Source: Celeribacter ethanolicus (GTDB taxonomy: Bacteria; Pseudomonadota; Alphaproteobacteria; Rhodobacterales; Rhodobacteraceae). Taken from it: a stretch of DNA of 64,000 bases. This document shows positions 28,120 through 42,417 of the stretch, one piece after another. The position numbers and the translations under genes are program-made. Position 1 is the first letter of the stretch; the number at the start of each line of letters is the position of its first letter. The stretch covers positions 62,001 to 126,000 of the forward strand of contig NZ_LRUC01000045.1 in the NCBI RefSeq assembly GCF_001550095.1, given 5' to 3'. Under the pieces are notes generated by a model. That model ran no database searches and was not told the origin of the DNA. It saw nothing but the letters and a program-made list of their open reading frames with translations.

Positions 28120-29418
28120 TCACATCATGTTGGGGACAAGCAGGACGATCGCCGGGAAGGCCAGAATGAGAACGACCCGCAGCACATCCACCAGCAGGAA
28201 GGAGGTGAGGCCCCGGAAAATGGTTCCGAGCTGCACGTCCTTGACCACGGATTTCAGCACGAAGGCGTTGAGACCGACGGGGGGCGTGATGTAGCTCACC
28301 TCGGTCACGATCACCACATAAATGCCGAACCAGATCAGATCGAAGCCCTGGGCTGCGACGATCGGATAGAAGATCGGCACGGTCAGGGTGATCATCGACA
28401 GGCCTTCGAGCACACAGCCCAGCACCAGATAGACCAGCGTGATGATCAGGATCACCATCAGCGGATTGTCCCCGACCGAAGTCACCAGCGTCTGGATGTC
28501 CCGGCTCATGCCCGAGAGGTTGACGTAATTGGCGAAGGTCAGCGCACCGAACAGGATGAAGAACATCATCGCCGTGGTCTTGGCGGTTTCGAACAGGGTC
28601 GAAAGCGTCTGAGACAGGTTGAGACGACCTTGGAGCAGCACCAGAAGGAAGGCGCCCCCTGCCCCCATGCCGGCACTTTCCGTCGGCGTGAACACCCCGA
28701 AATAGATGCCGCCCATGACGAAGGCGAAGAGACCGAGAGCTCCGGCCACGCCCTTGAGCGCGACGATCCGCTCCCGGAGCGGCAGCTTGTCCTCGACCGG
28801 CAGGTCGAAATGCCCGAAACGGATCGAGATCCGCACCGCGACGGCGTAGAGCACGACGCCCAGAATGCCCGGCAGAATGCCCGCGAGGAACAGCTTGCCG
28901 ATGTCCTGCTGGGTCATGATGCCGTAGAACACGAGGATCACGGAGGGCGGGATCAGGATGCCAAGCGTGCCGCCCGCCGCGATGGACGCGGTCGAAAGGC
29001 TGTCCGGGTAGCCGAATTTGCGCATGTTCGGCAGGGCGATCTTGGCCATGGTCGAAGCGGTCGCAAGCGACGAGCCGCAGACCGAGGAAAAGCCGCCGCA
29101 GGCCACCACGGTCGCCACCGCCAGCCCGCCCTTGCGGTGCCGGAGCCAGGCATAGGCGGCGGAATAGAGATCGCGTGCGATGCCCGATTGCACCACGAAA
29201 TTCCCCATCATCAGAAACAGCGGCAGGATCGACAGCGAATAGCTGCGGCTGTGTTCGAAATAGGTCTGCCCCAGCAGCGAATAGGACGGCGACCAGCCGA
29301 TGATCGCGGCGGTGCCGACCGTGCCCAGAAGCGCCAGAGCGAACGAAATCGGCACGCCGAGAAACAGCAGGATGAACAGGACGAGCGTCCCGAATTCCCA
29401 ATGAGCAAGCAAGGACAT
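28120..29418 (-). CDS. TRAP transporter large permease (DctM-like), TRAP 1
   Basis: A 432-residue membrane protein of the DctM family with about a dozen hydrophobic segments. It starts LVLFILLFLGVPISFALALLG and contains GGTLGILIPPSVILVFYGIM, a DctM hallmark. It is the last gene of a minus-strand dctP-dctQ-dctM operon and begins 1 base after the DctQ stop. TRAP systems use ion gradients to import organic acids. Its position beside iacR and the iac operon suggests an indole or aromatic-acid substrate; this is inference. Confidence 0.93.
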   Translation of the reverse strand: MSLLAHWEFGTLVLFILLFLGVPISFALALLGTVGTAAIIGWSPSYSLLGQTYFEHSRSYSLSILPLFLMMGNFVVQSGIARDLYSAAYAWLRHRKGGLAVATVVACGGFSSVCGSSLATASTMAKIALPNMRKFGYPDSLSTASIAAGGTLGILIPPSVILVFYGIMTQQDIGKLFLAGILPGILGVVLYAVAVRISIRFGHFDLPVEDKLPLRERIVALKGVAGALGLFAFVMGGIYFGVFTPTESAGMGAGGAFLLVLLQGRLNLSQTLSTLFETAKTTAMMFFILFGALTFANYVNLSGMSRDIQTLVTSVGDNPLMVILIITLVYLVLGCVLEGLSMITLTVPIFYPIVAAQGFDLIWFGIYVVIVTEVSYITPPVGLNAFVLKSVVKDVQLGTIFRGLTSFLLVDVLRVVLILAFPAIVLLVPNMM

Positions 29419-29419
29419 C

Positions 29420-29941
29420 TCAGTTTTTACCTCTCATCGGGTAGAAGATTTCGGCGAACATGATCACCGCGGAGACGATGCAGAGCATCGCCGAAAAATA
29501 GCCGATCGGCGCGATCGGCAGCTCCAGGGTTGCCGTGGTGCCGCCATAGCCCGCGACCTGCGACGCGGTCACCCAGAGCCGCCAGGCGATCATCACCTGC
29601 ACGCCAACGGAGAGCAAAAGCACGATGGGGCGGCGGATCTTGTCGATGGCCAGCGGCAGCCGGTCGGTGATCAGATCGACAGTGACATGTTCCCGGTCCA
29701 GCGTCGCCGCCGGAAGCCCGAGAAAGATCAGCGCCGCGAGCATCAGCTCGGTCAGCTCGGTCGCGCCCTTCACCGGGCTGTTGAGCAGGTAGCGGCCCAG
29801 TACATCGACCACCGTCAGCCCCATCATCGCGATCAGCAACACCGCACAGGCCACGGCGATCACGCCGTGAATGGGTCGGGCTGCCTTGGGAGGCAGCCCT
29901 TGTTCATGCGGTCCGGCAATATTTTCGGACAGGTTGATCAT
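29420..29941 (-). CDS. TRAP transporter small permease (DctQ-like), TRAP 1
   Basis: A 173-residue DctQ-type protein with four predicted membrane helices: VIAVACAVLLIAMMGLTVVD, LTELMLAALIFLGLP, IVLLLSVGVQVMIAWRLW and IGYFSAMLCIVSAVIMFAEI. It carries a polar 30-residue N-terminal tail. The start overlaps the DctP stop by 4 bases (ATGA). It links the large permease to the binding-protein step in the inner membrane. Confidence 0.9.
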   Translation of the reverse strand: MINLSENIAGPHEQGLPPKAARPIHGVIAVACAVLLIAMMGLTVVDVLGRYLLNSPVKGATELTELMLAALIFLGLPAATLDREHVTVDLITDRLPLAIDKIRRPIVLLLSVGVQVMIAWRLWVTASQVAGYGGTTATLELPIAPIGYFSAMLCIVSAVIMFAEIFYPMRGKN

Positions 29942-30972
29942 TCTTCGGCCTCGATCTTGGCAATCTCGTCGAACAACATGTCATAGGCCGCCTGCCCGTC
30001 AATCCCCGTTTCGCTCACCTTGGCGATCTGGCTGGCCACAATCGGTGCCAGACGGTCGCGCAGCACTTCGATTTCCTCGGGCGTGGCGGCCTTGAGCGCG
30101 ATCTTGCCCTCCATGGAGGCGCGGCCCTCGGCATCGACCTTGTCCCACATCTCGCCCGCGCGGCGCGCAAAGGCCTCGCCCAGAAGCGGCTCGATCAGGG
30201 CCTGATCCTCGGGCGAAATCGAATTCCATTTCGCCTCGTTCATCACCACGAACATCGCGGTGTTATAAAGCCCGCCCGGCACGGTGTAGCCGTAATCAAG
30301 AATGTCGTTGAGGTTGAAGAAGTTGACGGATTCGAACGGGAAGAAAATCCCGTCCGCCACGCCCTGGGACAAAAGCTCATAGGCTTTCGAGGACGGTCCC
30401 TCGACCGGCACGGCGCCCAGATCGGTGGCAATCGAATGCGCCAGAGCCGAGCCGATGCGGATTTTCTGACCGGAGATGTCTTCGGGCGTCTCGATCGGTT
30501 TGGTCGAGAAAATCTCCCCCGGACCATGGGTGAAAAGGGTCAGAACCTTCACGCCCTCATATTCGCCTGCGTCCTTGAGCAGCGCCTCATGCACGCGCCA
30601 GAAGGCCACGGAAGTTGCGACCGAACTGTCGGACATGAAAGGCATTTCCGCGATCATCGGCGTCTTGAACCGGCCGGGCGTGTAGCCATGCACGGAATAG
30701 GCAATGTCGGCCACGCCGTTTTTCGCAAGATCGAACGCGGCGGGCGGCGGCCCCAAGGGGGCGGGCAGCATGTTGATCTTCACCCGGCCTTCGGTGACGC
30801 GTTCGATGTCGGCCATCCACGGCACGAAGAGCTCGGAGACCTGCGGATGAGTCGGCGGCAGCCAGCTGTTCATCGTCAAGACCGTGTCGGCCTGCGCAAT
30901 CCCGGTGTAGAGTGCGATGGATGCCGCCACTGAGGTGACCCGCGTGGCGATCTTTTTGAGTTTCACGTTCAT
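29938..30972 (-). CDS. TRAP transporter substrate-binding protein (DctP-like), TRAP 1
   Basis: A 344-residue periplasmic binding protein. The signal peptide runs to about residue 28 (SIALYTGIAQAD), and the mature part begins TVLTMNSWLPPTHPQVSELF. SGQKIRIGSALAHSIATDLG and QGVADGIFFPFESVNFFNL are typical of DctP ligand domains. The ATG at 30972 follows an AGGGA site 9 bases upstream; a GTG two codons earlier is too close to that site. It is divergent from the iacR-like gene across 118 bases. Confidence 0.9.
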   Translation of the reverse strand: MNVKLKKIATRVTSVAASIALYTGIAQADTVLTMNSWLPPTHPQVSELFVPWMADIERVTEGRVKINMLPAPLGPPPAAFDLAKNGVADIAYSVHGYTPGRFKTPMIAEMPFMSDSSVATSVAFWRVHEALLKDAGEYEGVKVLTLFTHGPGEIFSTKPIETPEDISGQKIRIGSALAHSIATDLGAVPVEGPSSKAYELLSQGVADGIFFPFESVNFFNLNDILDYGYTVPGGLYNTAMFVVMNEAKWNSISPEDQALIEPLLGEAFARRAGEMWDKVDAEGRASMEGKIALKAATPEEIEVLRDRLAPIVASQIAKVSETGIDGQAAYDMLFDEIAKIEAEE

Positions 30973-31001
30973 TTTCACATTCCCTATTGGTGAGTGATGA
31001 T

Positions 31002-31090: not shown

Positions 31091-31579
31091 ATGACCCCGC
31101 CGACCGATCCGATGCCTTCCTCTCTGACCGATGACTCGCGAGACACGGAACATTTCCGTGACACATGGCCCTATTTCTGGATCGACCGCGCCAATGCCTA
31201 TTACATGCGCGCGCTCGACAAGCGGCTCAAACCGCTGGGCATCGACACGCCGCGCTGGCGCGTGCTGATGTCGCTCTATGAGCAGGATTACATGTCGGTC
31301 TCCGAGATCGCCGAGTTTTCCACGCTCAAGCTCAACACCACGACCAAGATCGTTCAGCGCATGGTCGCCGCAGGTCTGGTCGAGACCCGGGTGCGCCCGA
31401 CCGATGGCCGGGTGACCGAGGTCTGCCTGACCGGGAAAGGCGACGATCTGCGCGCCAAGGCGCTCGGCGAGGTCAACCGCATCCGCGACGAAAGCTTTTA
31501 CAACACCTCGCCCGCCGAACTTCAGACGCTCAACGAAATCCTCGCGAAGATCTCGAAAGATCTCGCCCGGATGATCTGA
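31091..31579 (+). CDS. iacR: MarR-family regulator of the iac cluster (IacR-like)
   Basis: A 162-residue MarR protein. The helix-turn-helix and wing lie at about residues 60-110: MSVSEIAEFSTLKLNTTTKI, then MVAAGLVETRVRPTDGRVTE. A long N-terminal part contains DTWPYFWIDRANAYYMRALD. In Pseudomonas putida 1290 the iac genes are accompanied by a MarR-type gene iacR, which is established. Assignment here rests on family and location, convergent with the iac operon end. It is divergent from TRAP 1, so it may control both. The ATG at 31091 was chosen; an ATG 4 bases earlier is out of frame. Confidence 0.8.
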   Translation: MTPPTDPMPSSLTDDSRDTEHFRDTWPYFWIDRANAYYMRALDKRLKPLGIDTPRWRVLMSLYEQDYMSVSEIAEFSTLKLNTTTKIVQRMVAAGLVETRVRPTDGRVTEVCLTGKGDDLRAKALGEVNRIRDESFYNTSPAELQTLNEILAKISKDLARMI

Positions 31580-31596
31580 GGCGCAGCACACCCGCA

Positions 31597-32100
31597 TCAC
31601 TGCGACCCCGTCACAAGGTGATGGTAGTCGCGGCTGAACCAGACCAGCCCGTGTCGGGTCTCATCCGACAGGCGCACCGCCTCGACCTGACAGAAGAACA
31701 CGGAATGCGTGCCCTCTTCCTGACGGCCCGTGATCCGGCAATCGAAGGCGACATTGGCGTCCGACAAAAGCGGCGCGCCGGTCGCCTCCGTCAGCCAGTC
31801 GCCATAGGAAAACCGGTCGACGCCCGCGACATAGCGCGCGAAATGGCCAGAGAGATCCTGATGCTCGGCGGCCAGAACATTGACCGCCAGCACACCGTTT
31901 TCCACGAATTTATCGTGCGCATAGGCGCTTTTGTTGATGCAGACCAGAAGCGTCGGCGGCTGATCCGTCACCGAACAGACCGCCGAGGCCACAAGCCCGT
32001 GCCGACCCGCCGGCCCGTCGGTGGTGATCAGGTTCACCGCCGCACCGAGCCGGCTCATGCCTTCGCGAAAATCGCGCTGGGTTTCCGTCAGTTCCGTCAT
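31597..32100 (-). CDS. iacG: Flavin reductase of the iac pathway (IacG-like)
   Basis: A 167-residue flavin-reductase-domain protein. DFREGMSRLGAAVNLITTDG lies at the N-terminus, then GLVASAVCSVTDQPPTLLVC, which is the flavin-binding signature, and HSVFFCQVEAVRL late in the protein. Such reductases supply reduced flavin to a partner monooxygenase, here most likely IacA. The ATG at 32100 has a GAGGA site 4-8 bases upstream, better than the ATG at 32109. It is the last gene of the iacHABCDEFG operon, converging on iacR with an 17-base gap. Confidence 0.88.
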   Translation of the reverse strand: MTELTETQRDFREGMSRLGAAVNLITTDGPAGRHGLVASAVCSVTDQPPTLLVCINKSAYAHDKFVENGVLAVNVLAAEHQDLSGHFARYVAGVDRFSYGDWLTEATGAPLLSDANVAFDCRITGRQEEGTHSVFFCQVEAVRLSDETRHGLVWFSRDYHHLVTGSQ

Positions 32101-32112
32101 GGTCCTCATGGC

Positions 32113-33075
32113 TCAGATATCCAACACCAGTTTCGGCCCCTTGGCCCGCGAACAGCAGGCACAGATCACGTCACCGTCCTCGCGCTCCTCTTCGGTGAGG
32201 AACTGATCGCGGTGGTCGATCTCGCCCGCCAGCACATCGGTCAGGCAGGTGCCGCAGACGCCCTCTTCGCATTTCACCTCGATCTTGATGCCTTCGCGCG
32301 CCAGAGCTTTCGCAATGGTGTCGTCGGAACCCACGGTGATGGTCACGCCCGATTGTGCGCATTCGACCTCGAAGCTGTCGCCCGTGAGTTCCACATCCGC
32401 CGAGAAATATTCGCGGTGGACATTGGCCGTCGCATGACCGGCGGCTTCGGCGGTGTCGATCACCCAGTCCATGAACCCTTGCGGACCGCAGACATAGAGA
32501 TGGGTGGCGGCATTCGGCGCAGGAAGATCGCGTTTGAGATCAAGCTTTTGCGCCGCGTCCATATCGTCGAAGTGGAACACCACCTTGTCGGCAAAGCCGC
32601 AACCTTTCAGCTCGTCCATGAAAGCGGTCACGCCTTCGGAGCGGGTGCAGTAATGCAGGGTGAAGTCTTTGCCCAAGGCATGGAGCCGCTTGGCCATCGC
32701 GATCATCGGCGTAATCCCGATGCCGCCGCCCAAGAGCACGGTGGTCTCGGCGCTCTCCTCCAGCGGGAAGTGATTGCGCGGGCCTTCGACGGTGAAGACC
32801 GCGCCCTCGACAGCCGTCTCATGCACCTTGACGGAACCGCCCCGGCTTTGCGGGTCTTTCAAGACGCCGATCTCGTAAAACCCGGTCTCCGCCGGATCGG
32901 AGCAAAGCGAATATTGCCGCCACATGTCGAGATCCGGCAGGTAGAGATCGAGATGCGCCCCCGCCTCATAGGGCAGGATCGCGCCGCCGGCCTCCGGGGC
33001 AAACCGGATTCGGGCGATGTCACCCTTGTCGTCGATCCGGGCGATGACTTTGAGGTTTTGTGCGTTATCGGTCAT
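32113..33075 (-). CDS. iacF: Ferredoxin reductase component of the iac dioxygenase (IacF-like)
   Basis: A 320-residue phthalate-dioxygenase-reductase-type protein. The flavin domain includes RQYSLCSDPAE near residue 55 and a nucleotide motif GGGIGITPMIAMAKRL near 115. The C-terminal plant-type 2Fe-2S domain has CEEGVCGTC near 270 and a distal Cys in VICACCSRA. It would pass electrons from NAD(P)H to the Rieske oxygenase IacC/IacD. The ATG at 33075 lies 2 bases after the IacE stop; an in-frame GTG one codon earlier overlaps that stop. Confidence 0.9.
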   Translation of the reverse strand: MTDNAQNLKVIARIDDKGDIARIRFAPEAGGAILPYEAGAHLDLYLPDLDMWRQYSLCSDPAETGFYEIGVLKDPQSRGGSVKVHETAVEGAVFTVEGPRNHFPLEESAETTVLLGGGIGITPMIAMAKRLHALGKDFTLHYCTRSEGVTAFMDELKGCGFADKVVFHFDDMDAAQKLDLKRDLPAPNAATHLYVCGPQGFMDWVIDTAEAAGHATANVHREYFSADVELTGDSFEVECAQSGVTITVGSDDTIAKALAREGIKIEVKCEEGVCGTCLTDVLAGEIDHRDQFLTEEEREDGDVICACCSRAKGPKLVLDI

Positions 33076-33077
33076 CA

Positions 33078-33839
33078 CTATCTCACATAAAGCCCGCCGT
33101 TGACGTCCCAGCAGGCGCCGTTGACAAAGGCCGCCTCGGGACTGGCAAGCATCACCACCATCTGCGCCACGAACTCGGGATCGCCGAGACGCTGCACCGG
33201 AATATTGGCAATCGCCGCCTCGATCTTGTCGCCCAGAACGCCCCGGACCATCGGCGTGTCCATCGGACCCGGCGCAATGGCGTTGCAGGTGATCCCAAAC
33301 GGAGCGAGATCGCGGGCAAACACTTTGGTCAGGGTCAGGATCGCACCTTTCGAGGCGGCATAATGCGCGCCCGTCGCCGTGCCGCCATTCTGCCCCGCCA
33401 AAGAGGCCATATTGACGATCCGGCCATAGCCGCGGTCCTTGAAGTGGCGCGCAAAGATCTGGCTGCCGGCAAAGGTGCCGCCCGCGTTCGTGGCCATGAT
33501 GTCATTGAACGTGGCTGGGTCGATCTCCATCAGCGGCTGCGCCATGGTGCGCGCGGCGTTGTTCACCAACACCTCGACGGAGCCGTAGCGCTCGATGCAT
33601 TTATCGAGCACGCTTTGGAAATCCGCGGGCTTGGAGACGTCCAGCGTGGCGGTGATCGCGGTCTCGCCCGCAAGGTCCAGTTCGGAGGCGAGAGCTTGCG
33701 CCTCCTCGCCGGGATTTATGTCGGCGATCACCACGCGGTAGCCCGCCTTGTGCAGCGCCCGCACGACGGAGGCGCCAAAGCCGCGCGCCCCGCCCGTGAC
33801 AACAGCGGTTTGGATTTTCTCAGGCAAAGGGGCCACCAT
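33078..33839 (-). CDS. iacE: SDR dehydrogenase of the iac pathway (IacE-like)
   Basis: A 253-residue short-chain dehydrogenase. The cofactor motif TGGARGFGASVV lies near residues 15-26, NNAA near 93, ASLAGQNGG near 145, and the catalytic HYAASKGAILTL near 157. The C-terminal FVNGACWDVNGGLYVR is typical. In the iac pathway IacE is assigned to an intermediate conversion between hydroxylated indole-acetate species; the precise step is less settled than for IacA. Its ATG shares one base with the IacD TGA, showing operon coupling. Confidence 0.88.
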   Translation of the reverse strand: MVAPLPEKIQTAVVTGGARGFGASVVRALHKAGYRVVIADINPGEEAQALASELDLAGETAITATLDVSKPADFQSVLDKCIERYGSVEVLVNNAARTMAQPLMEIDPATFNDIMATNAGGTFAGSQIFARHFKDRGYGRIVNMASLAGQNGGTATGAHYAASKGAILTLTKVFARDLAPFGITCNAIAPGPMDTPMVRGVLGDKIEAAIANIPVQRLGDPEFVAQMVVMLASPEAAFVNGACWDVNGGLYVR

Positions 33840-34333
33840 CAGAACAAATAGCTGAACGAATTCAGCATCCCATCGGAGTTGAGAAGACGGATCACCTTTT
33901 GCTGGAGCTTGAACCCGCCCTCGGTGACTTTGAGGATATATTCGACATTGCCCGCCCAGATGCGCTGGCGGCCGAATTTGTCCTCGACCAGATGTTCGGC
34001 ACAGGAGACGGTGATCAGATCGCCCTCCGCGGCCTCGATCCGGAACCGCGACAGGGTGCGCACGGTTTGCGCGGGTGGCGCGGAGGAAATCGAGAACCCG
34101 GCATGAAACCGACCGACCCGGTCACGCCGCATCTTGGCGTTGTCGTAACACAGGTTGACGGAATTCTTGAAATCCACCGTGTCGCCGATGGGCATGATGT
34201 ACAGCCCGTCGTCGGTCCACAGATCGAGCCAGTCGTCATATTCCTTCAGGTCGAGCATGGCGCTCTCGGCCCAGATGAAGGCCGTGACATCGGCCAGCAT
34301 GGATTTGGTGTCGATTTTGCTCATCTCGGTCAT
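33839..34333 (-). CDS. iacD: Rieske-type dioxygenase small subunit (IacD-like)
   Basis: A 164-residue ring-hydroxylating dioxygenase beta subunit of the NTF2-like fold. Motifs include FIWAESAMLDLKEYDDWLDL near residue 20 and DDGLYIMPIGD near 45. GRFHAGFSISSAPPAQTVRT and the C-terminal FKLQQKVIRLLNSDG are typical. It has no cofactor site and stabilises the alpha subunit. The ATG at 34333 overlaps the IacC stop (ATGA), which decides the start over a GTG seven codons upstream. Confidence 0.9.
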   Translation of the reverse strand: MTEMSKIDTKSMLADVTAFIWAESAMLDLKEYDDWLDLWTDDGLYIMPIGDTVDFKNSVNLCYDNAKMRRDRVGRFHAGFSISSAPPAQTVRTLSRFRIEAAEGDLITVSCAEHLVEDKFGRQRIWAGNVEYILKVTEGGFKLQQKVIRLLNSDGMLNSFSYLF

Positions 34334-35607
34334 TGCGCCATCATCCTTTTCCACATTTTGTAAGCGGCACGCATGCCGGTTTCGGCGGAGATATGGCCGC
34401 GCGGGCCGAACTCGCCCGGCTCCTCGTCGACCATGCCCCGGTTCACGAGGATCTTGAGATCCGGGCCACCCTTGGTGCCGCGCTGGATGCGTTCCCAGAC
34501 CTCGGCATCGTCGGGAGAGCCAAAGCCCATCGGTCCCTGGAAATGTTCATGCAGACGGATGCGCGCCTGGTTCGCGGCCTCCGGGCCGCCGTCCATGCCG
34601 ATGGCGATGTGACGGATGTCGGTCTGCTCCACGTTGATCGGGGTCAGCACGCGGAAGAAGGCGAGCGAGAAGGACACGTTCGGGAAGAGGTTGAGGTTGA
34701 ACCCCGCCCCGCTCACTGCGCGGACGATTTTCTTGACCTGATCTTCCGGGTAACCCTCATCGCGCAGCTCCTGCGCCAGATCGGCAAAGCGTTCCGGGAT
34801 CGGCGCATCGAGGTTCTCGTCGAGATCGACCAGTTCGGGGATCATGGTCATGACAGAGTGACCGTTGCCCAGATCTTCGACATAGCCGACGCCCTTGTCG
34901 AGGAAGTCGAACATCTCTTCGGTCGCGCCGTCGAGCGTCTGCATGAAGCTCTTGTGCACGATCGGGAAGTGATAGGCATCGGTGGTGTTCTCAAGCTGGA
35001 CTTTCCAGTTCATCGGCACGGAGAACTGATGTTCGCCCAGCACCTTCACCGGGAAACCGCCGCCCTGTTTCATGAACAGGTCGATATATTTGCGCACGCC
35101 CTCGCCGAGGAAATCCTCAAGCGGTTCGATGTCTTCCTTGAAGGTCGCGAACACCATGCCGTTATAGGCCTCGGTGCGCAGTTTCACGAGACCGTGCTGG
35201 GATTTGTCGAAATCGTCGCCGTATTGCTCCGGATAAGGCAGCGCACGCAGCGAACCGTCGAGGCCATAGCCCCAGCCGTGATAGGGGCACTGGAAGGAAG
35301 ACGTCTTGCCCTTCTTCACTTCGCAGACGGTGGCGGCGCGGTGGCGGCAGCGGTTGACCATGCAATGGATCTTGCCCTTGCGGTCACGCACCACGATCAC
35401 CGGCTCAAGGCCGACCTGCGACAGCTTGAAAGAGCCCTTGTCAGGGAATTCGCTTTCATGCGCGACCCAGACCCAGGTGTTCTTAAAGATCTTCTCCATC
35501 TCTTCATTGAAGAGCTCGGGATCTTCGTACATTTCGGTGGCGACCTTGGCGTTCTTCTCGTCGTAGAGCGCGTCGAGATCGCTGAATTTCGGCATATCGA
35601 GAGACAT
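34330..35607 (-). CDS. iacC: Rieske-type dioxygenase large subunit (IacC-like)
   Basis: A 425-residue ring-hydroxylating dioxygenase alpha subunit. The Rieske motif CRHRAATVC...CPYHGW (C-x-H, then C-x2-H) lies near residues 86-108, and the mononuclear iron site TTDAYHFPIVH near 208. In the iac pathway this oxygenase, with IacD and IacF, carries out the late oxygenation leading toward catechol. The ATG at 35607 follows a strong TAAGGAGGAC site 3-12 bases upstream. Spacing to the IacB stop is 23 bases. Both metal sites look intact, so the enzyme should be functional. Confidence 0.92.
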   Translation of the reverse strand: MSLDMPKFSDLDALYDEKNAKVATEMYEDPELFNEEMEKIFKNTWVWVAHESEFPDKGSFKLSQVGLEPVIVVRDRKGKIHCMVNRCRHRAATVCEVKKGKTSSFQCPYHGWGYGLDGSLRALPYPEQYGDDFDKSQHGLVKLRTEAYNGMVFATFKEDIEPLEDFLGEGVRKYIDLFMKQGGGFPVKVLGEHQFSVPMNWKVQLENTTDAYHFPIVHKSFMQTLDGATEEMFDFLDKGVGYVEDLGNGHSVMTMIPELVDLDENLDAPIPERFADLAQELRDEGYPEDQVKKIVRAVSGAGFNLNLFPNVSFSLAFFRVLTPINVEQTDIRHIAIGMDGGPEAANQARIRLHEHFQGPMGFGSPDDAEVWERIQRGTKGGPDLKILVNRGMVDEEPGEFGPRGHISAETGMRAAYKMWKRMMAQ

Positions 35608-35630
35608 GTCGTCCTCCTTACGTTGCGGAC

Positions 35631-35993
35631 TTAAAGCTGCGGGATTTCGAGAGCACGGCCCATGCGCGCCTCGACGGTCATGTATTTCCAAAGGCGATCG
35701 TTGCCCTCACCCACCACGATGGTGCGCAGAAGGTTACAGGCGGCCATGACATCCTCGCGGGTCGGGAAATCGGCCATGATGTACCAGGTGTAGGGAAAGC
35801 CCACGGAGGCGCCGACAAAGGTCTGGTCGTCGTCGAAAGTGCCGACGATCTCGACCCCTTCCATCTGGTCGATCTTGAACATCAGCTCTTGGGTGGCTTT
35901 CCAGACCGGCCCGATCTGGTCAAACGGCAGGCTGAAAAACGCGGCGTGGTTGTTGAAGCACAACAGGGTGCGGATCGGTTTCTGGTCGCTCAT
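35631..35993 (-). CDS. iacB: Small iac-pathway protein (IacB-like)
   Basis: A 120-residue protein with no cofactor motif. It contains EIVGTFDDDQTFVGASVGFP and WYIMADFPTREDVMAACNLL, suggesting a small alpha-beta barrel fold similar to EthD-type dimers. In characterised iac operons a protein of this size lies directly between iacA and iacC, and here the order is the same. It has been proposed to assist an intermediate conversion. Assignment is by position and size more than by motif. Confidence 0.78.
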   Translation of the reverse strand: MSDQKPIRTLLCFNNHAAFFSLPFDQIGPVWKATQELMFKIDQMEGVEIVGTFDDDQTFVGASVGFPYTWYIMADFPTREDVMAACNLLRTIVVGEGNDRLWKYMTVEARMGRALEIPQL

Positions 35994-36050
35994 GTCTCTG
36001 GTCCTCTCTGAAGGAAAATCTTTGCAATATGTCTGGGAACTGCGCAGGCG

Positions 36051-37202
36051 TTAAGGGTAACCCGGCATGGTCGGCTGATCGAAGAACCCGGCCCCGGCGG
36101 CGGTCCATGTCCCCTCGCCCATGAAGGCGTGCTGCGCCACGCAGGCGGCATCCACCATGCAGCGGCCAAGCGTGTGACCCGTCGCCATCACGCCGGAACC
36201 GCCGATGACAAAGGCCATGCGCGCGGCTTCGGCGCCGTCGCGGGCCGCCTTGCTGGCCACGAGGCGCAGGCGGATTTTCATGTCCGGGCTGACCTCTCCG
36301 GTGGTTTTCAACTCGTCCCAACCGGCCTCGATCGTATCGTAGAACGCCGCGCGGGCACCCATCAGAAGGCCCTGCGCACGCGCGAATTCCGCCTGCACAT
36401 AGGGCCGCGCGCCGGGGTTCGGCGCACCGGTGATCGAGGCGCGCTGACGGGCATCCTCGACGAGGAAATCCAAGGCCTCGCGCGCCGCCCCCAAGGCCAC
36501 GACGGCCAGAACCTGCGCCGCGAGCGCCATCGCCGGAAAACGGAAGATCGCATCGTCCAAAAGCGGTTTGCCGCCCCGGATGAAGGTCCATTCGGGCGCA
36601 ACCACCACACCCTCGGCCACAGCGTCATGCGATCCGGTCGCCGACAGGCCGATGGTGTTCCATGTCTCGTCCACCGCCACCTTGTCGCGCGGCATGACGG
36701 CCACGCGCGGCAGCGGCGTGTCATCGCCCTCGACCTTGATCCCCATGCCGACGATGGAAGACCCCATGATGCCCGAGCACCACGGCCAGCGGCCCGACAC
36801 TTTGAACCCGCCCGCGACCTTCTCGGCCTTTTGCGGCGGGAACATCGCCCCCGCGAACACCGTGTCCGGGTCCTTGCCGTAAATCGCCGCGTAAGTTTCG
36901 GGCGGAAGCGCCGCGAGATAGGTGGCGGACACCCCGAAGGACGCCACCCAGCCGGTGGAGGCGTCAGCGGCGGAAATATCCTCGATCAGGCGGCAGAAAT
37001 CGGCGGGGCTCAGCTCGTCGCCGCCAAAACGCGCCGGGACAAAGGCGCGATAGGCGCCGATCTGTTGCAGCTTTTTCACCATGTCGAGCGGCACATGCCG
37101 CAGTGTGGTGAATTCGGCCCGGCGTGCCCGGATCTCATCCAGCACGGAGACATAGGCGGCCGTGTCGGCCTGTTCAAAAGCCAGTTTCGAAAGATAGGTC
37201 AT
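36051..37202 (-). CDS. iacA: Indole-3-acetate monooxygenase (IacA-like), acyl-CoA-dehydrogenase fold
   Basis: A 383-residue group D flavin monooxygenase of the acyl-CoA dehydrogenase superfamily. Segments include FGGDELSPADFCRLIEDISA, AADASTGWVASFGVSATYLA and the flavin-contact region GGFKVSGRWPWCSGIMGSS. The C-terminal half is helical (MAFVIGGSGVMATGHTLGRC). IacA starts auxin breakdown by hydroxylating indole-3-acetate and uses reduced flavin, fitting the iacG reductase in the operon. It overlaps the iacH stop by 4 bases (ATGA). Related enzymes act on indole or 4-hydroxyphenylacetate, but the full iac context supports the call. Confidence 0.88.
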   Translation of the reverse strand: MTYLSKLAFEQADTAAYVSVLDEIRARRAEFTTLRHVPLDMVKKLQQIGAYRAFVPARFGGDELSPADFCRLIEDISAADASTGWVASFGVSATYLAALPPETYAAIYGKDPDTVFAGAMFPPQKAEKVAGGFKVSGRWPWCSGIMGSSIVGMGIKVEGDDTPLPRVAVMPRDKVAVDETWNTIGLSATGSHDAVAEGVVVAPEWTFIRGGKPLLDDAIFRFPAMALAAQVLAVVALGAAREALDFLVEDARQRASITGAPNPGARPYVQAEFARAQGLLMGARAAFYDTIEAGWDELKTTGEVSPDMKIRLRLVASKAARDGAEAARMAFVIGGSGVMATGHTLGRCMVDAACVAQHAFMGEGTWTAAGAGFFDQPTMPGYP

Positions 37203-38362
37203 TGGTTACGGTCCTTTGACTGAAACAGCGGGATGCAGGACGTGATCCAGCGCGCAACGGCGCAGAGCTTGGCGTCCTCGCCCTTGCGTCCGATGATCTG
37301 CAACCCGATGGGCAGACCGGCGTTCGAACGTGCAGGCAGTGTGATGGCGGGATGGCCCGAAAGGTTGAACGGGCGCTGAAAACGGGTGAGCGAGAGGACA
37401 TTCTGCGGGTCCTGAGCCTCGGCAAGCGTCGGCGGCACGGTCGGCAGCGAGGGCGTGACCAGGGCGTCATAACGCTCCAGAAGCGCGTCCACCTCGGCGG
37501 TGAAGCGGGTGCGGACCGCTTCGGCCTCAGCACGCTGCGCGTCCGTGATTTTCCGGGCATTCCTGAGCCGTGCAGCGATGTCCAGCCCGAAGGGCGCGCC
37601 CTGATCCAGCATCGGCCCGAAGTCCTGCGCCATTTCATGCGACATCACCACCATGCCCGCGTCGAAAGCCGCCTCGAACGAAGGCAGGATGTCGTAAGGC
37701 ATGTCCGGATAGGCGTCCATCAGCGCGTAAACCAGCGGATCGCCCACCTCGGCGTCTACTCCTTCGGATTTGATCCGGCCCAGTTTCGGCGCATGGAGCA
37801 GCTTTTCCGGCACGAATGTCGGGTCGATCGCCGTCATGCCGCGCACCAGCATGTCCATGTCCCGCGCCAGAATGCCCGGACAATCGAGCGAACTGTGCAC
37901 GGGTGTCAGCCCCTTGCGGCTCACCCGGCCATAGGTCGGTTTGATCCCGATCACGCCACAGCAGGTGGCGGGCTGGCGCACCGAGCCGCCGGTATCGGTA
38001 CCCACGGCGAAATCGCAAAGCCCCTCGGCCACGGCCACGGCAGAGCCGGAAGACGAGCCGCCGGGAATGCGATCCGGACAGAGCGGATTGACCGGCGTGC
38101 CGGTGAAACCGTTGACCCCGGTCATGCCGAAGGCGATCTCATGCATATTGGCCTTGCCGATGATCCTGCATCCCGCCTCCAGCAGGGCGTCGACCAGATC
38201 GGCGTTTCGTGCGGCGGGCGGCTGCGATGCGAAAGCCCGCGAGCCACAGCCCGTGACGGTGCCTTCGACATCAATACAATCCTTGACGACCACGGTCGGA
38301 CCGCCCCCGCCAAGGGACAGCTCTCCGACCAGCGTCGCGGCGCTGGGAGTCTGTGCGTTCAT
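37199..38362 (-). CDS. iacH: Amidase of the iac cluster (IacH-like)
   Basis: A 387-residue amidase-signature enzyme. The catalytic Lys is in TVVVKDCIDVEGT near residue 28. GGSSSGSAVAVAEGL supplies the cis-Ser near 105, and TDTGGSVRQPATCCG the Ser nucleophile near 130. IacH of Pseudomonas is an amidase-family protein and may release indole-3-acetate from indole-3-acetamide or conjugates. It is the first gene of the iac operon, so its promoter drives the whole set. The ATG at 38362 follows a weak GGGAAAG site. Confidence 0.88.
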   Translation of the reverse strand: MNAQTPSAATLVGELSLGGGGPTVVVKDCIDVEGTVTGCGSRAFASQPPAARNADLVDALLEAGCRIIGKANMHEIAFGMTGVNGFTGTPVNPLCPDRIPGGSSSGSAVAVAEGLCDFAVGTDTGGSVRQPATCCGVIGIKPTYGRVSRKGLTPVHSSLDCPGILARDMDMLVRGMTAIDPTFVPEKLLHAPKLGRIKSEGVDAEVGDPLVYALMDAYPDMPYDILPSFEAAFDAGMVVMSHEMAQDFGPMLDQGAPFGLDIAARLRNARKITDAQRAEAEAVRTRFTAEVDALLERYDALVTPSLPTVPPTLAEAQDPQNVLSLTRFQRPFNLSGHPAITLPARSNAGLPIGLQIIGRKGEDAKLCAVARWITSCIPLFQSKDRNQ

Positions 38363-38403
38363 CTTCTTTCCCTGTTGCGGGTCTTGGCCGTTCTTGCGGC
38401 TCT

Positions 38404-38439
38404 TTACGGTAACTTTCACGCAAAAAGACGACAGGTCAA
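38404..38439 (-). promoter_or_regulatory. Likely iacH operon promoter with overlapping operator
   Basis: On the minus strand a TTGACC -35 element (38434-38439) is followed 21 bases later by TTACCGTAA (38404-38412), which would cover the -10/start area. The same TTACG arm pairs with CGCAA at 38419-38423 across 10 bases. A similar layout occurs upstream of TRAP 2. No good -10 hexamer was found. Confidence 0.5.
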
Positions 38440-38492
38440 GTGAAAAATGAAATAAATCCTTTACCCAAACATTCTCATTTCGTAAAAAACAT

Positions 38493-38501
38493 TTACAGTA
38501 A
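38493..38501. promoter_or_regulatory. TTACAGTAA element upstream of iacI
   Basis: A 9-base palindrome of the TTACNGTAA type, 103 bases upstream of the iacI start and 131 bases upstream of iacH. It is the second copy in this divergent region and may be a further site for the cluster regulator. Confidence 0.45.
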
Positions 38502-38604
38502 TTTTACCGCTTTAAATCCTGGCACACTCTCCCACCAAAGATCAAAAAACAGGCAGGGCGTGTCTTGACCACAGGGAGCGCGAGTCGCGCAAGAAAGGAC
38601 AGAG

Positions 38605-39177
38605 ATGTCACAAGACACCACGCACACGATAGAAACCCTCACCCGCCGCATCGAGAATCTCGAAGCCGCAAACGAAATCCGCAACGTCCAGATGCGCTAC
38701 ATGTTCCTCTGCGACACGCCGCTGCCGGAATATGGCGTCAAGGACGACGCGGAACGCATCGACCTGATCATGGAGCTGTTCTCTGAGGAGGCCGTCTGGG
38801 AAGGCGTCGGCGAATATTACGACGGCCAGTTCGGTCGCGCCGAGGGCAAGGCGGCCGTGCGCAAGCATTTCGAAGGCTTCTGGGGCGGCAAGACCGATCC
38901 GGCGCTGATCCTCAACTGCCATTATGTGACCTCTGAGCAGATCCACATCGCGGACGACGGCCTCACCGCGACCGGGCAATGGGTGCATATGCAACCCTGG
39001 CTGTTCTCTGACGGCAAGGCGCTGCTGCGCTCGTCACGTTTGTTCAACGCCTTCAAGAAATGCGACGATGGTGTCTGGCGCTATACCCGCAACCGGACGG
39101 AGAACGTGTTCGTCGCGCCGCTTCCCGCGACCTGGGCGTCGGATTACCCGTCGAAATCCGTGTTGATGAAACCGTAA
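38605..39177 (+). CDS. iacI: SnoaL/NTF2-like protein of the iac cluster (IacI-like)
   Basis: A 190-residue protein of the NTF2-like/SnoaL fold. It contains ENLEAANEIRNVQMRYMFLC, LFSEEAVWEGVGEYYDGQFG, NCHYVTSEQIHIADDGLTAT and a C-terminal FVAPLPATWASDYPSKSVLM. Ring-hydroxylating small-subunit-like folds of this type serve as isomerases, hydratases or structural partners. iacI is a conserved member of characterised iac clusters; its role is unresolved. It is transcribed alone, divergent from iacH, with an AAGGACAG ribosome site, and ends before a very strong terminator. Confidence 0.8.
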   Translation: MSQDTTHTIETLTRRIENLEAANEIRNVQMRYMFLCDTPLPEYGVKDDAERIDLIMELFSEEAVWEGVGEYYDGQFGRAEGKAAVRKHFEGFWGGKTDPALILNCHYVTSEQIHIADDGLTATGQWVHMQPWLFSDGKALLRSSRLFNAFKKCDDGVWRYTRNRTENVFVAPLPATWASDYPSKSVLMKP

Positions 39178-39250: not shown

Positions 39251-40576
39251 TCACCAAAGCGCCAGTTTAGGAAAAACCATCGTGAGCACCAGAATGCCGA
39301 TCTGCATCGCCACGAAGGGCAGGACCGAGCGGTAAATCTGGGTAATCTCCACATCCGGTACAGCATTTTTCAGATAGAACAACGCCATCCCCACCGGCGG
39401 GGTCAGGAAGGACGCTTGCAGACAGATCGCCATCAGGATCGCCACCCATGCCGGATCGTGACCCAAGGCCGTGAGCACCGGCAGAACCAGCGGCGCGACG
39501 ATCAGGATGATCTCCATCCAGTCGAGGAAGAAGCCCAAGAGGAAAACGATGAACAGAATGAGGATCAGCGTCCCTGTCGGTGGCAGCGGGATCGCGTGCA
39601 GCGCGCCTTCGATCAGTTCGTCGCCGCCGTAGCCCCGCAACACGACGGAGAAACAGGACGCCCCGAAGATCAGCGCGAAGAGAAAGGCGGTGGTCAGCCC
39701 GGTGCCTTCACAGACCTCCCGGAAGTCCGCCCAACTGAGCCGCCGGGAGGCCACCGCGATCAAGGTCGCGCCCGCCGCCCCGACGCCCGAGGCCTCGGTC
39801 GGGGTCGCGATGCCGAAAACGATGGACCCCAGCACGGCAATGACCAGCAAAAGCGGCGCCACCAGCGAACCGAGCAGATCGCGCAGGATCTCCCCCGCGC
39901 CTCGCCCTGTTTCCAGCGCGCGGGCGGGCGCGCGGTCAGGGTGCAGGATGGCATAAATCACCGCATAGACCACATAGGCGACGGCCAGCAAAAGCCCGGG
40001 GATCATCGCACCACGGAACAGATCGCCCACAGGAATCTGCAACTGATCGCCCATGACGATAAGCATGATCGAGGGCGGGATGAGAATGCCGAGACAGCCG
40101 GTCGCACCGACAACGCCCAGCCCCAGCCGGTCGTCATAGCCCGCCCCGCGCATCGCCGGCATGGCGATGGTGGCGAGCAACATGACGGAGGCCCCGATGA
40201 TGCCCGTCGAGGCGGCCAGCACCACGCCGATCAGCACGACGGACACCGCCATACCACCGGGCACGACGCGCAGAAGCGAATGCATCCGGGTCAACAGGCG
40301 CTCCGCCACGCCGGATTTGTCGAGCATCATCCCCATGAACACGAACATCGACATCGGGATCAGGGAATAGCTCGACAGCGTGTCGAAAATCCGGTTGGCG
40401 ACAAAGCCGATCATCCGAAGAGACGCCATATCGGCATCGACCGAGAAATAATCGAGCATGGTGCCCAGAGAGGCAAAGCCCACGGCCACCCCGCCCAGCA
40501 CAAAGGCGATCGGATAGCCGGAGAACATCACCACCAGAAAGGTCGAGAACAGCAGAAAAACGAAAAGAACATCCAT
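39251..40576 (-). CDS. TRAP transporter large permease (DctM-like), TRAP 2
   Basis: A 441-residue DctM-type membrane protein with many hydrophobic segments. It starts LFVFLLFSTFLVVMFSGYPIAFVLGG and contains GATGCLGILIPPSIMLIVMG, the DctM motif. GMALFYLKNAVPDVEITQIY near the end is typical. It follows the DctQ gene after 6 bases in a minus-strand dctP-dctQ-dctM operon. Together with TRAP 1 it brackets the iac genes, so both are candidates for uptake of indole-3-acetate or related acids. Which one, if either, does this is unknown. Confidence 0.93.
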   Translation of the reverse strand: MDVLFVFLLFSTFLVVMFSGYPIAFVLGGVAVGFASLGTMLDYFSVDADMASLRMIGFVANRIFDTLSSYSLIPMSMFVFMGMMLDKSGVAERLLTRMHSLLRVVPGGMAVSVVLIGVVLAASTGIIGASVMLLATIAMPAMRGAGYDDRLGLGVVGATGCLGILIPPSIMLIVMGDQLQIPVGDLFRGAMIPGLLLAVAYVVYAVIYAILHPDRAPARALETGRGAGEILRDLLGSLVAPLLLVIAVLGSIVFGIATPTEASGVGAAGATLIAVASRRLSWADFREVCEGTGLTTAFLFALIFGASCFSVVLRGYGGDELIEGALHAIPLPPTGTLILILFIVFLLGFFLDWMEIILIVAPLVLPVLTALGHDPAWVAILMAICLQASFLTPPVGMALFYLKNAVPDVEITQIYRSVLPFVAMQIGILVLTMVFPKLALW

Positions 40577-40582
40577 CTCAAC

Positions 40583-41095
40583 TCACTCCCGATACGTCTT
40601 GGGTCCGAAAAGGAACAGAAGAGATTTCAACAGGATCGCCACCCCTTGCAGGAACAGAAGCGACAACCCCGCCGCCATCACGCCCTTGATCAGGTAACGC
40701 GCCGGCAGGCCCGAGGGCATGGGAGAGCCTTCCTTAAGGTTCCAGGAATACTTGAAGATCGTCCAGGCGGAGCCGGTGACGTACCACAGAAAAGGCAGGA
40801 GCAGGAACACGACGCCGAGCACTTCGACAATCGCCCGCGCCGTGGGCGACATCCTGGCGTGAAACGCATCGACGCGGACATGCACGTCCTTCTGATAGGC
40901 CCAGGCGAGGCAGGACATCACGGCGATGGCGTTGAGATGCCATTGCAATTCCTCGAGCTGGATGAAGCCGAGGCCAAGCGCATAGCGGGAGAAGACATTG
41001 ACCAGAATGGTGAGCATCAGAAGCGGCAGGAACAGGCTGCCGATGCGACCGATCCCGGCGATGAACCGTTCGGTATAGGAAATGAGTGCGGTCAT
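40583..41095 (-). CDS. TRAP transporter small permease (DctQ-like), TRAP 2
   Basis: A 170-residue DctQ-type membrane protein. Helices include GSLFLPLLMLTILVNVFSRY, LQWHLNAIAVMSCLAWAYQK and IVEVLGVVFLLLPFLWYVTG. QKDVHVRVDAFHARMSPTAR is a conserved DctQ loop. The ATG at 41095 (MTALISYTERF) was taken; the open frame runs 12 codons further upstream into an unlikely sequence. The gap after the DctP stop is 41 bases. Confidence 0.88.
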   Translation of the reverse strand: MTALISYTERFIAGIGRIGSLFLPLLMLTILVNVFSRYALGLGFIQLEELQWHLNAIAVMSCLAWAYQKDVHVRVDAFHARMSPTARAIVEVLGVVFLLLPFLWYVTGSAWTIFKYSWNLKEGSPMPSGLPARYLIKGVMAAGLSLLFLQGVAILLKSLLFLFGPKTYRE

Positions 41096-41136
41096 GACGA
41101 TGCGCGCCGGAGGCCCCTGCCCCCGGCGCATCTTTC

Positions 41137-42192
41137 TCAGCGGCGTTCGGACCAGGCGGCGGTCTTGGCGCGGTAGGCCTCAAGCGAGTCCCAGACCCGT
41201 TTGAAATCCGCGTCCGCGGCAACCTGTTCGGCAATCACCTCGTCAAAGGCAGTGTGCAGGCCCTCAAGCACCTCCGGCGGGAAGCTCTTGATCTCCACAC
41301 CGGCCTCTTCAAACGTCGCAATCGCATCGCCATTGGCCGTGAGCGTCGAGATCACGGAGGTCAGGTTGACCGCCTTGCAGGTCTCTTCGATGAGGGTCTG
41401 CTGCGCCGGGTCGAGGCTGTCCCATTTCGCCATATTGACGATCAGCTCGTTCATCGCCGCCGGTTGGTGCCAGCCCGGCAGGTAGTAATATTTGCCGACG
41501 TCCTGAAGGCCCAGCGTGATGTCGATGGCGGGCATGGACAACTCGGTGCCGTCGATGATGCCCTTTTCCATCCCCGGATAGATCTCGCCGCCCGGCAAAA
41601 GCACGATGGACGCGCCGACCTTGGCCATGGCCTCGCCTGCGAGACCGGCAAAACGGATCTTCTTGCCCTTCAGATCGTCGAGCGAATTGATCTCGAAGTT
41701 GTACCAGCCGCCCGCCTCGCTATCCATGAGGCCGCAGGGAATGGTTTTGACGCCCTGTTTGGCGTAGATTTCAGCCCAAATCTCGGCGCCGCCACCCTCG
41801 TAGAGCCAGCCGGTGTGGGTCAGCACATCGGGGCCGAAGGGAATGCCCCCAAAGAGTTGCACCGCCGGGAAGCGACCGGCGACATAGAGCGGCGAGGTGA
41901 TCCCCGCATCGAGCGAGCCCTGTTGCACCGCGTCAAAGATTTGCAGCGACGGCACCAGCTTGCCCGCGCCGTAAACCGTCACGTCGAGCGCCCCGCCCGA
42001 TGCTTCGTTGAGCTTTTCGCCGAGATAGGCCGCATTGGCACCCGAAGCCGGCATAGTCAGCGGCCAGGCGCTCTGGATGTCGAGCTTGGTGCCGCCGGCA
42101 AGTGCCGGGGTCGCCATCGCCGCCGTCACAGCCAGCGCGCCGAGGGTCTTCCCGAGGCTGTTTTTCAGGGTCGTTTTCATCTGTGCAGTCAT
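41137..42192 (-). CDS. TRAP transporter substrate-binding protein (DctP-like), TRAP 2
   Basis: A 351-residue periplasmic binding protein. The signal peptide covers about residues 1-32 (LGALAVTAAMATPALAGG). The mature part begins TKLDIQSAWPLTMPASGANA, with LKGKKIRFAGLAGEAMAKVG and GWHQPAAMNELIVNMAKW following. This subclass resembles the mannitol/chloroaromatic-type DctP proteins, a loose similarity. The ATG at 42192 has a TGGAG site 7-11 bases upstream; MKTTLK at 42180 is an alternative. It is the first gene of its operon, with a promoter and operator-like sequence 176-225 bases upstream. Confidence 0.88.
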   Translation of the reverse strand: MTAQMKTTLKNSLGKTLGALAVTAAMATPALAGGTKLDIQSAWPLTMPASGANAAYLGEKLNEASGGALDVTVYGAGKLVPSLQIFDAVQQGSLDAGITSPLYVAGRFPAVQLFGGIPFGPDVLTHTGWLYEGGGAEIWAEIYAKQGVKTIPCGLMDSEAGGWYNFEINSLDDLKGKKIRFAGLAGEAMAKVGASIVLLPGGEIYPGMEKGIIDGTELSMPAIDITLGLQDVGKYYYLPGWHQPAAMNELIVNMAKWDSLDPAQQTLIEETCKAVNLTSVISTLTANGDAIATFEEAGVEIKSFPPEVLEGLHTAFDEVIAEQVAADADFKRVWDSLEAYRAKTAAWSERR

Positions 42193-42367: not shown

Positions 42368-42417
42368 TTACGTTATTATTACCGTAATTATTGACCGACA
42401 TCCGAGACACCTGTCAA
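42368..42417 (-). promoter_or_regulatory. Likely TRAP 2 promoter with TTACG-N10-CGTAA operator
   Basis: On the minus strand a consensus TTGACA -35 (42412-42417) is followed after 19 bases by AATAAT (42387-42392). Overlapping its downstream side is TTACCGTAA (42379-42387). TTACG (42368-42372) and CGTAA (42383-42387) form a perfect 20-base inverted repeat with a 10-base centre. The iacH promoter has the related TTACG-N10-CGCAA. Confidence 0.55.

Follow-up and report, generated by a model that had tools for sequence, protein, structure and literature searches.

The stretch of Celeribacter ethanolicus DNA analysed here (64,000 nucleotides of contig NZ_LRUC01000045.1, hereafter the window) carries a cluster of iac genes, for the catabolism of indole-3-acetate (auxin), between positions 31091 and 39177. 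All ten genes are open and uninterrupted, at the coordinates assigned to them by an earlier interpretation made from the letters alone (the sequence-only reading). On the minus strand, from 38362 down to 31597, lie iacH-A-B-C-D-E-F-G; iacI is divergent from iacH, and iacR lies on the plus strand, facing iacG (Table 1). This is the order that had been proposed, including the divergent iacI, and the completeness claimed for the set is confirmed by open frames and by Pfam domains, iacB being the gene that has no Pfam match. ATGA overlaps exist at iacH/iacA and iacC/iacD, and iacD and iacE share one base; short gaps separate the other genes, with 57 bases between iacA and iacB and 23 bases between iacB and iacC. 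The start of iacH is most likely ATG 38362 (387 residues) rather than GTG 38419 (406 residues), because a conserved palindrome, described below, falls within the longer form.

Table 1. Genes, transporter operons and palindromic sites at the iac locus (positions in the window)
Feature	Position	Strand	Evidence or remark
TRAP transporter 1 (DctP-DctQ-DctM), candidate auxin importer, adjoins iacR	28120..30978	-	dctM over cut-off; DctP closest to 4P56
iacR, MarR-family regulator, probable auxin-released repressor	31091..31579	+	Pfam MarR; best PDB match 7KUA, E 4.7e-24
iacG, flavin reductase	31597..32109	-	PF01613, E 7e-38
iacF, PDR-type reductase of Rieske oxygenase	32113..33075	-	Fer2 (2Fe-2S) and NAD-binding domains; cysteine motif
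iacE, short-chain dehydrogenase (SDR)	33078..33839	-	PF13561, E 1.3e-55
iacD, ring-hydroxylating oxygenase beta subunit	33839..34333	-	PF00866, E 7e-19; start ATG 34333
iacC, Rieske oxygenase alpha subunit	34330..35607	-	PF00355 and PF00848; Celeribacter litoreus IacC 95% identical
iacB, small conserved protein, 120 residues	35631..35993	-	No Pfam or NCBIfam match
iacA, acyl-CoA-dehydrogenase-like flavin monooxygenase	36051..37202	-	PF08028, E 1.5e-13; tree
iacH, amidase	37199..38362	-	PF01425, E 1.9e-75; catalytic motifs
TTACNGTAA palindrome, 42 bases upstream of iacH, candidate IacR operator	38404..38412		Inverted-repeat scan and matrix
Second TTACNGTAA palindrome, between iacH and iacI	38493..38501		Inverted-repeat scan and matrix
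iacI, SnoaL-like protein, divergent	38605..39177	+	PF13577 (SnoaL_4)
TRAP transporter 2 (DctP-DctQ-DctM), possibly same regulon, beyond iacI	39251..42192	-	dctM over cut-off; DctP closest to 2HZK, 7UG8
Third TTACNGTAA palindrome, 187 bases upstream of second TRAP operon	42379..42387		Also in C. persicus (L031, L141)

Pattern searches found the two motifs of the Rieske oxygenase (Rieske CxH...CxxH and the iron-site motif Nx2Dx2Hx4H), the amidase motifs of IacH (VVKD, GGSSSGSA and GTDTGGS), the ferredoxin cysteines of IacF and the YxxxK of the SDR IacE. The metal and flavin motifs had been described as intact; this holds for the metal and catalytic motifs, the flavin-site residues of IacA and IacG lying outside the pattern search.

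The genes represent more than a chance assembly, since the full iacA-H set is retained within approximately 10 kb in 74 of 80 named loci; iacI is found within the same distance in 76 and iacR in 56. These loci are the best 80 of 269 related stretches and were found with IacC, so that the sample is biased towards close kin; gene counts were taken from tblastn maps with identity thresholds of our own choosing, and include loci truncated at the end of a contig. IacB marks iac well: among 72,556 plasmid records, 28 match it, four of which carry the annotation IacB. Its predicted model has a mean pLDDT of 88, and no PDB entry matched it at E 0.001 or better. The model has a ferredoxin-like look, with dimeric ferredoxin-like proteins and HemQ/chlorite dismutase among the nearest solved folds, all of them weak matches.

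IacA and IacG belong to broad families, and the closest PDB relative of IacA, Rv3094c, is not an auxin enzyme. These facts could suit a general oxygenase cluster for indole or hydroxyphenylacetate with no more than a resemblance to iac. We consider this very improbable given the whole ten-gene set, IacB and IacR included, and the scores of IacA against the NCBIfam models for p-hydroxyphenylacetate hydroxylase (101 bits, cut-off 650) and HsaA (147 bits, cut-off 450), both far too low, which upholds the iac reading against a hydroxyphenylacetate oxygenase. The phylogeny, on which the sequence-only reading had staked its claim, agrees as far as the proteins covered go. The tree comprised 40 IacA-like proteins, with no named indole oxygenase among them; the smallest well-supported sets containing the window IacA are wholly iac-linked, among them one of 23 rows (support 100/100). 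Four other ACAD-type oxygenases fall outside the larger iac set, but the fork dividing them from it is weak (83/45), and it counts against a clean border that two homologues without a demonstrated iac link (L159, L015) lie inside.

The regulator separates the locus from the other known type of aerobic auxin degradation under MarR control, the iad loci of Variovorax and Ruegeria pomeroyi, which are described as having other gene content, anthranilate as product and an IadR-type regulator (PMC9613470). According to the same source, both types have homologues of iacC and iacD as well as a MarR regulator, so a degradation of auxin to anthranilate has to be weighed here too. IacR of the window, however, matches IacR-type structures at E values of 5e-24 to 6e-19, compared with 1e-7 to 2e-6 for the IadR type, and iacA, iacB, iacG, iacH and iacI are all present. 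By gene content and regulator the locus is therefore iac-like, with an IacR-type and not an IadR-type regulator, and we give the anthranilate alternative hardly any weight. The closest solved relatives of IacR are 7KUA, 7L1I and 7L19, identified in published papers as the IacR proteins of Pseudomonas putida 1290, A. baumannii and E. soli, respectively. Tyr44 of the P. putida protein is described there as contacting the auxin carboxylate; it aligns with Tyr38 in the window, assuming an offset of 24 tag residues in the 7KUA numbering, and a tyrosine occupies this position in 55 of 55 regulators.

In the stretch upstream of iacH we scanned all 4-base inverted repeats with gaps of 0 to 11. The top-ranked repeat, TTAC-N-GTAA (TTACNGTAA), occurs there in 44 of 85 loci, while background windows taken from those loci average 0.0, although these windows are coding stretches, a choice that favours any AT-rich promoter motif. 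Because such a background flatters the motif, more weight is carried by the concentration of the site and by its absence before other iac genes: 53 of 69 exact sites fall in the 37 kb upstream of iacH (2% of the 1.75 Mb searched), and none was found within 300 bases upstream of the starts of iacA (0/86), iacC (0/88), iacE (0/88) or iacF (0/87). The window holds three sites versus 0.03 expected, and the whole host genome eight versus 42 for the reversed pattern. Scored with a matrix built without the window, its three sites reach 21.7–26.1; four of the other five in the genome score 7.5–15.4 and one scores 24.8. The two sites of the iacH/iacI promoter region are 89–90 bases apart in the window, C. 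persicus and C. baekdonensis alike.

The site accompanies close relatives of IacR, being present in 32 of 42 loci with an IacR at least 50% identical compared with two of 16 below 50% (not corrected for kinship). This suggests IacR as the binder and TTACNGTAA as a candidate IacR operator. Use of an IacR operator is reported in PMC8242030. Besides the coding background, three observations weigh against this assignment. The site scoring 24.8 lies upstream of a HerA-like ATPase gene with no evident auxin link (L175:2199; host C41:37698). Ten of 27 loci without a local iacR still have the palindrome, so that another regulator may bind it. Finally, no exact site lies upstream of the first TRAP operon of the window, and the site precedes only 3 of 53 DctP-like genes.

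Both TRAP operons that flank the cluster are complete. The DctP of the first resembles 4P56 (E 2e-69) and 7nr2 (E 3e-47), which we take to be binders of mandelate and lignin-type aromatic acids, and a relative of it (at least 45% identity) is found near iac in 35 of 80 loci. This resemblance and this recurrence make TRAP transporter 1 the leading candidate for auxin import, with auxin probably as its substrate. Among TRAP binding proteins, TarP of R. palustris is reported to bind cinnamates with nanomolar affinity (PMC3610893). A literature search on TRAP transporters, auxin and Rhodobacter matched a single genome paper, on Nereida ignava, and one on iac and Roseobacter a single Chlamydomonas paper. 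The nearest matches for the DctP of the second operon are 2HZK (labelled sorbitol/mannitol) and 7UG8 ('Ketoacid-binding protein'), and relatives of at least 60% identity lie near iac in ten of the 80 loci. In Halomonadaceae (L072, L074–L081, L108) iacF and iacG are separated by an inserted TRAP transporter.

The closest named IacC is that of Celeribacter litoreus (Table 1), and the host, which had been read as a probable marine alphaproteobacterium, is supported as a Celeribacter type and is probably marine. Within the genus (Celeribacter group), iacB is found in 12 of 20 genomes, compared with none of the 41 others of that sample; across the order it is found in nine of 292 sampled genomes. 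Judged by this marker, the occurrence of iac is patchy, as expected for an accessory function. One genome with a full-length copy also has two short pieces 80–81% identical to IacB (G007:C1:2298764-2298946), perhaps a decayed second iac locus.

Published iac loci are described as feeding catechol into catABC (PMC7225977), a source that calls the step between dioxindole-acetate and catechol an unfilled gap. We found no muconolactone isomerase in the host genome, and the ortho route therefore looks incomplete. One run of genes on host contig C49, on the other hand, includes catechol 2,3-dioxygenase (410 bits, curated cut-off 320), 2-hydroxymuconic semialdehyde dehydrogenase (871, cut-off 693), acetaldehyde dehydrogenase (478, cut-off 282), 4-hydroxy-2-oxovalerate aldolase (573, cut-off 286) and a hydratase just below its cut-off (330, cut-off 350). 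Since the host encodes most of the meta-cleavage route there, use of catechol by meta-cleavage is plausible, and the presumed last step to catechol fits the host genome. Against catechol as the end product count the incomplete ortho route and the position of the ring-cleavage genes, which do not adjoin iac. In the genus, catechol 2,3-dioxygenase passes its cut-off in four of 20 genomes, all four with iac.

We may wonder whether another indole acid, for instance 5-hydroxyindole-acetate, could be the main substrate of the cluster, or whether the cluster could feed hydroxyquinol instead of catechol into cleavage. Chemically, 5-hydroxyindole-acetate passed through iac would yield hydroxyquinol. 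A hydroxyquinol product in the window was at first favoured, since the host lacks muconolactone isomerase and has two intradiol enzymes resembling hydroxyquinol dioxygenases; it was weakened by the catechol 2,3-dioxygenase and further meta-cleavage genes of the host, by a muconate cycloisomerase beside one of its intradiol genes, and by a host dioxygenase subtype that differs from the iac-linked one. In the window, no pair of a hydroxyquinol-type dioxygenase and a maleylacetate-reductase-like gene lies beside iac; the closest such gene of the host is in another locus. At host C5 (L133), genes of these two kinds lie on either side of a branched-chain-type ABC transporter, at approximately 6 kb from each other, and probably belong to another aromatic pathway.

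The case is stronger in relatives. We counted a hydroxyquinol-type dioxygenase when it was at least 60% identical to the host L005 protein, whose best PDB matches are 6-chlorohydroxyquinol dioxygenase, PnpC and hydroxyquinol dioxygenase, and at most 10 kb from iac. Such a gene is present in 27 of 80 loci (L033, L034, L040, L041, L049, L053–L056, L060, L063–L066, L069, L070, L073, L075, L082–L086, L088, L092, L104 and L109), 25 of which also have a maleylacetate-reductase-like gene. The latter label is based on Fe-alcohol-dehydrogenase domains, on context and on a single PLSDB annotation; the genes passed no equivalog model. The arrangement of dioxygenase and iac varies among Celeribacter, Rhizobium, Azospirillum, Halomonas and Acidocella, and on the IacC tree the dioxygenase label needs 14 changes, at least ten of them on well-supported branches. 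In the genus, all five dioxygenases of a 65–68% subtype lie approximately 9 kb from iacB (five of 12 iac-bearing genomes); two of these matches have a TGA within them, and the 80 loci already include at least three of the five. Taken together, these findings suggest that the dioxygenase and iac are functionally connected in such relatives, and the pathway may end otherwise than in catechol in some of them.

Other counts are less favourable. In the order sample the 65–68% subtype occurs four times in three genomes, one carrier being without iac, and it lies near iacB in only two of nine iac-bearing genomes. Muconolactone isomerase is also found in 19 of 26 hydroxyquinol-linked genomes searched (compared with six of 23 with the ketopantoate-reductase/aldolase module described below), which counts against a simple replacement of catechol cleavage, and the idea of another substrate comes from general chemistry. 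A literature search linking auxin, hydroxyquinol and maleylacetate reductase matched only Corynebacterium/indole work; a looser search on auxin and hydroxyquinol gave none with hydroxyquinol among the matches listed, and one on 5-hydroxyindole-acetate with iac none on point among the matches listed. For the window, we regard another main substrate or a hydroxyquinol product as improbable, though worth keeping in mind.

We conclude that the window very probably holds a working iac-type auxin catabolic locus of a Celeribacter species. In the present analysis this rests on gene content, order, motifs, relatedness, the conserved palindromes and the meta-cleavage gene set; the reactions of IacA and IacE, the formation of catechol and repression by IacR are taken from published work on other species (PMC9613470 and PMC7225977 for the two reactions). 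Auxin would enter the cell, probably via TRAP transporter 1, and release IacR, a MarR repressor expected to bind TTACNGTAA at the iacH/iacI promoters and before TRAP transporter 2. IacA, with reduced flavin from IacG, would then form 2-oxindole-acetate, which IacE would convert to dioxindole-acetate. We infer that IacH, IacI and IacB, together with the Rieske system IacCDF, would strip the nitrogen and side chain to give catechol, the activity of every enzyme in this organism being likewise deduced. Catechol would most likely be opened by the meta-cleavage enzymes encoded elsewhere in the genome.

The locus adds one member to an already known type, and the sequence-only reading of it as a complete iac cluster was correct. 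Pseudomonas putida 1290, whose IacR is the closest solved relative of that of the window, has the same genes A–I and R, but in the order iacABCDEFGRHI (PMC11373566), whereas the cluster of the window begins with H, has I in divergent orientation and is flanked by TRAP operons. The plasmid loci of Acinetobacter and Klebsiella (L011, L012) are ordered H-A-B-I-C-D-E-F-G, with iacI inside the operon, no TTACNGTAA before iacH and, beside L011, catABC; their IacA and IacC are 43% and 63% identical to those of the window. The marine locus of Marinomonas sp. NFXS50/MWYL1 is described as having an ABC transporter, the order ABICDEFG followed by H, and class II aldolase and ketopantoate-reductase companions (PMC11373566). 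The transporter and order are unlike those of the window; one or both companions lie near iac in 30 of 80 loci (including L030, L035, L047, L051, L057, L074 and L077–L081), yet not beside iac here. This module and the hydroxyquinol module (27/80) have an overlap of 0, but we do not claim mutual exclusion, as tree-corrected pairs gave a median p of 0.125. An APC permease and an AraC regulator lie near iac in L010, L036, L038, L050, L061 and L100, with an aldehyde dehydrogenase in four of the six and an annotated tyramine oxidase subunit in L010; this neighbourhood may feed tryptamine-like amines into auxin breakdown.

Auxin passes between algae and bacteria, and algae may be its natural source for this host, as the sequence-only reading supposed. 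In the publications consulted, bacterial breakdown of auxin is studied chiefly in isolates from plants and soil; the marine cases are Marinomonas and Ruegeria pomeroyi. Found in 12 of 20 Celeribacter-group genomes, a complete and apparently regulated iac locus offers a tractable marine alphaproteobacterial test case, in which the candidate operator and the TRAP transporter open regulation and uptake to testing. More tentatively, and as a possibility that we ourselves consider doubtful, iac in alphaproteobacteria and Halomonadaceae could be a movable core whose modules for uptake and ring cleavage are exchangeable, its alphaproteobacterial branch being under an IacR operator, TTACNGTAA, that here reaches a TRAP transporter. 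In about one third of loci the partner would be hydroxyquinol cleavage, so that the iac enzymes would either break down indole-acetates hydroxylated on the ring, such as those derived from serotonin, or produce hydroxyquinol in place of catechol. The association with hydroxyquinol genes in relatives is relevant to the unfilled part of the pathway from dioxindole-acetate to catechol.

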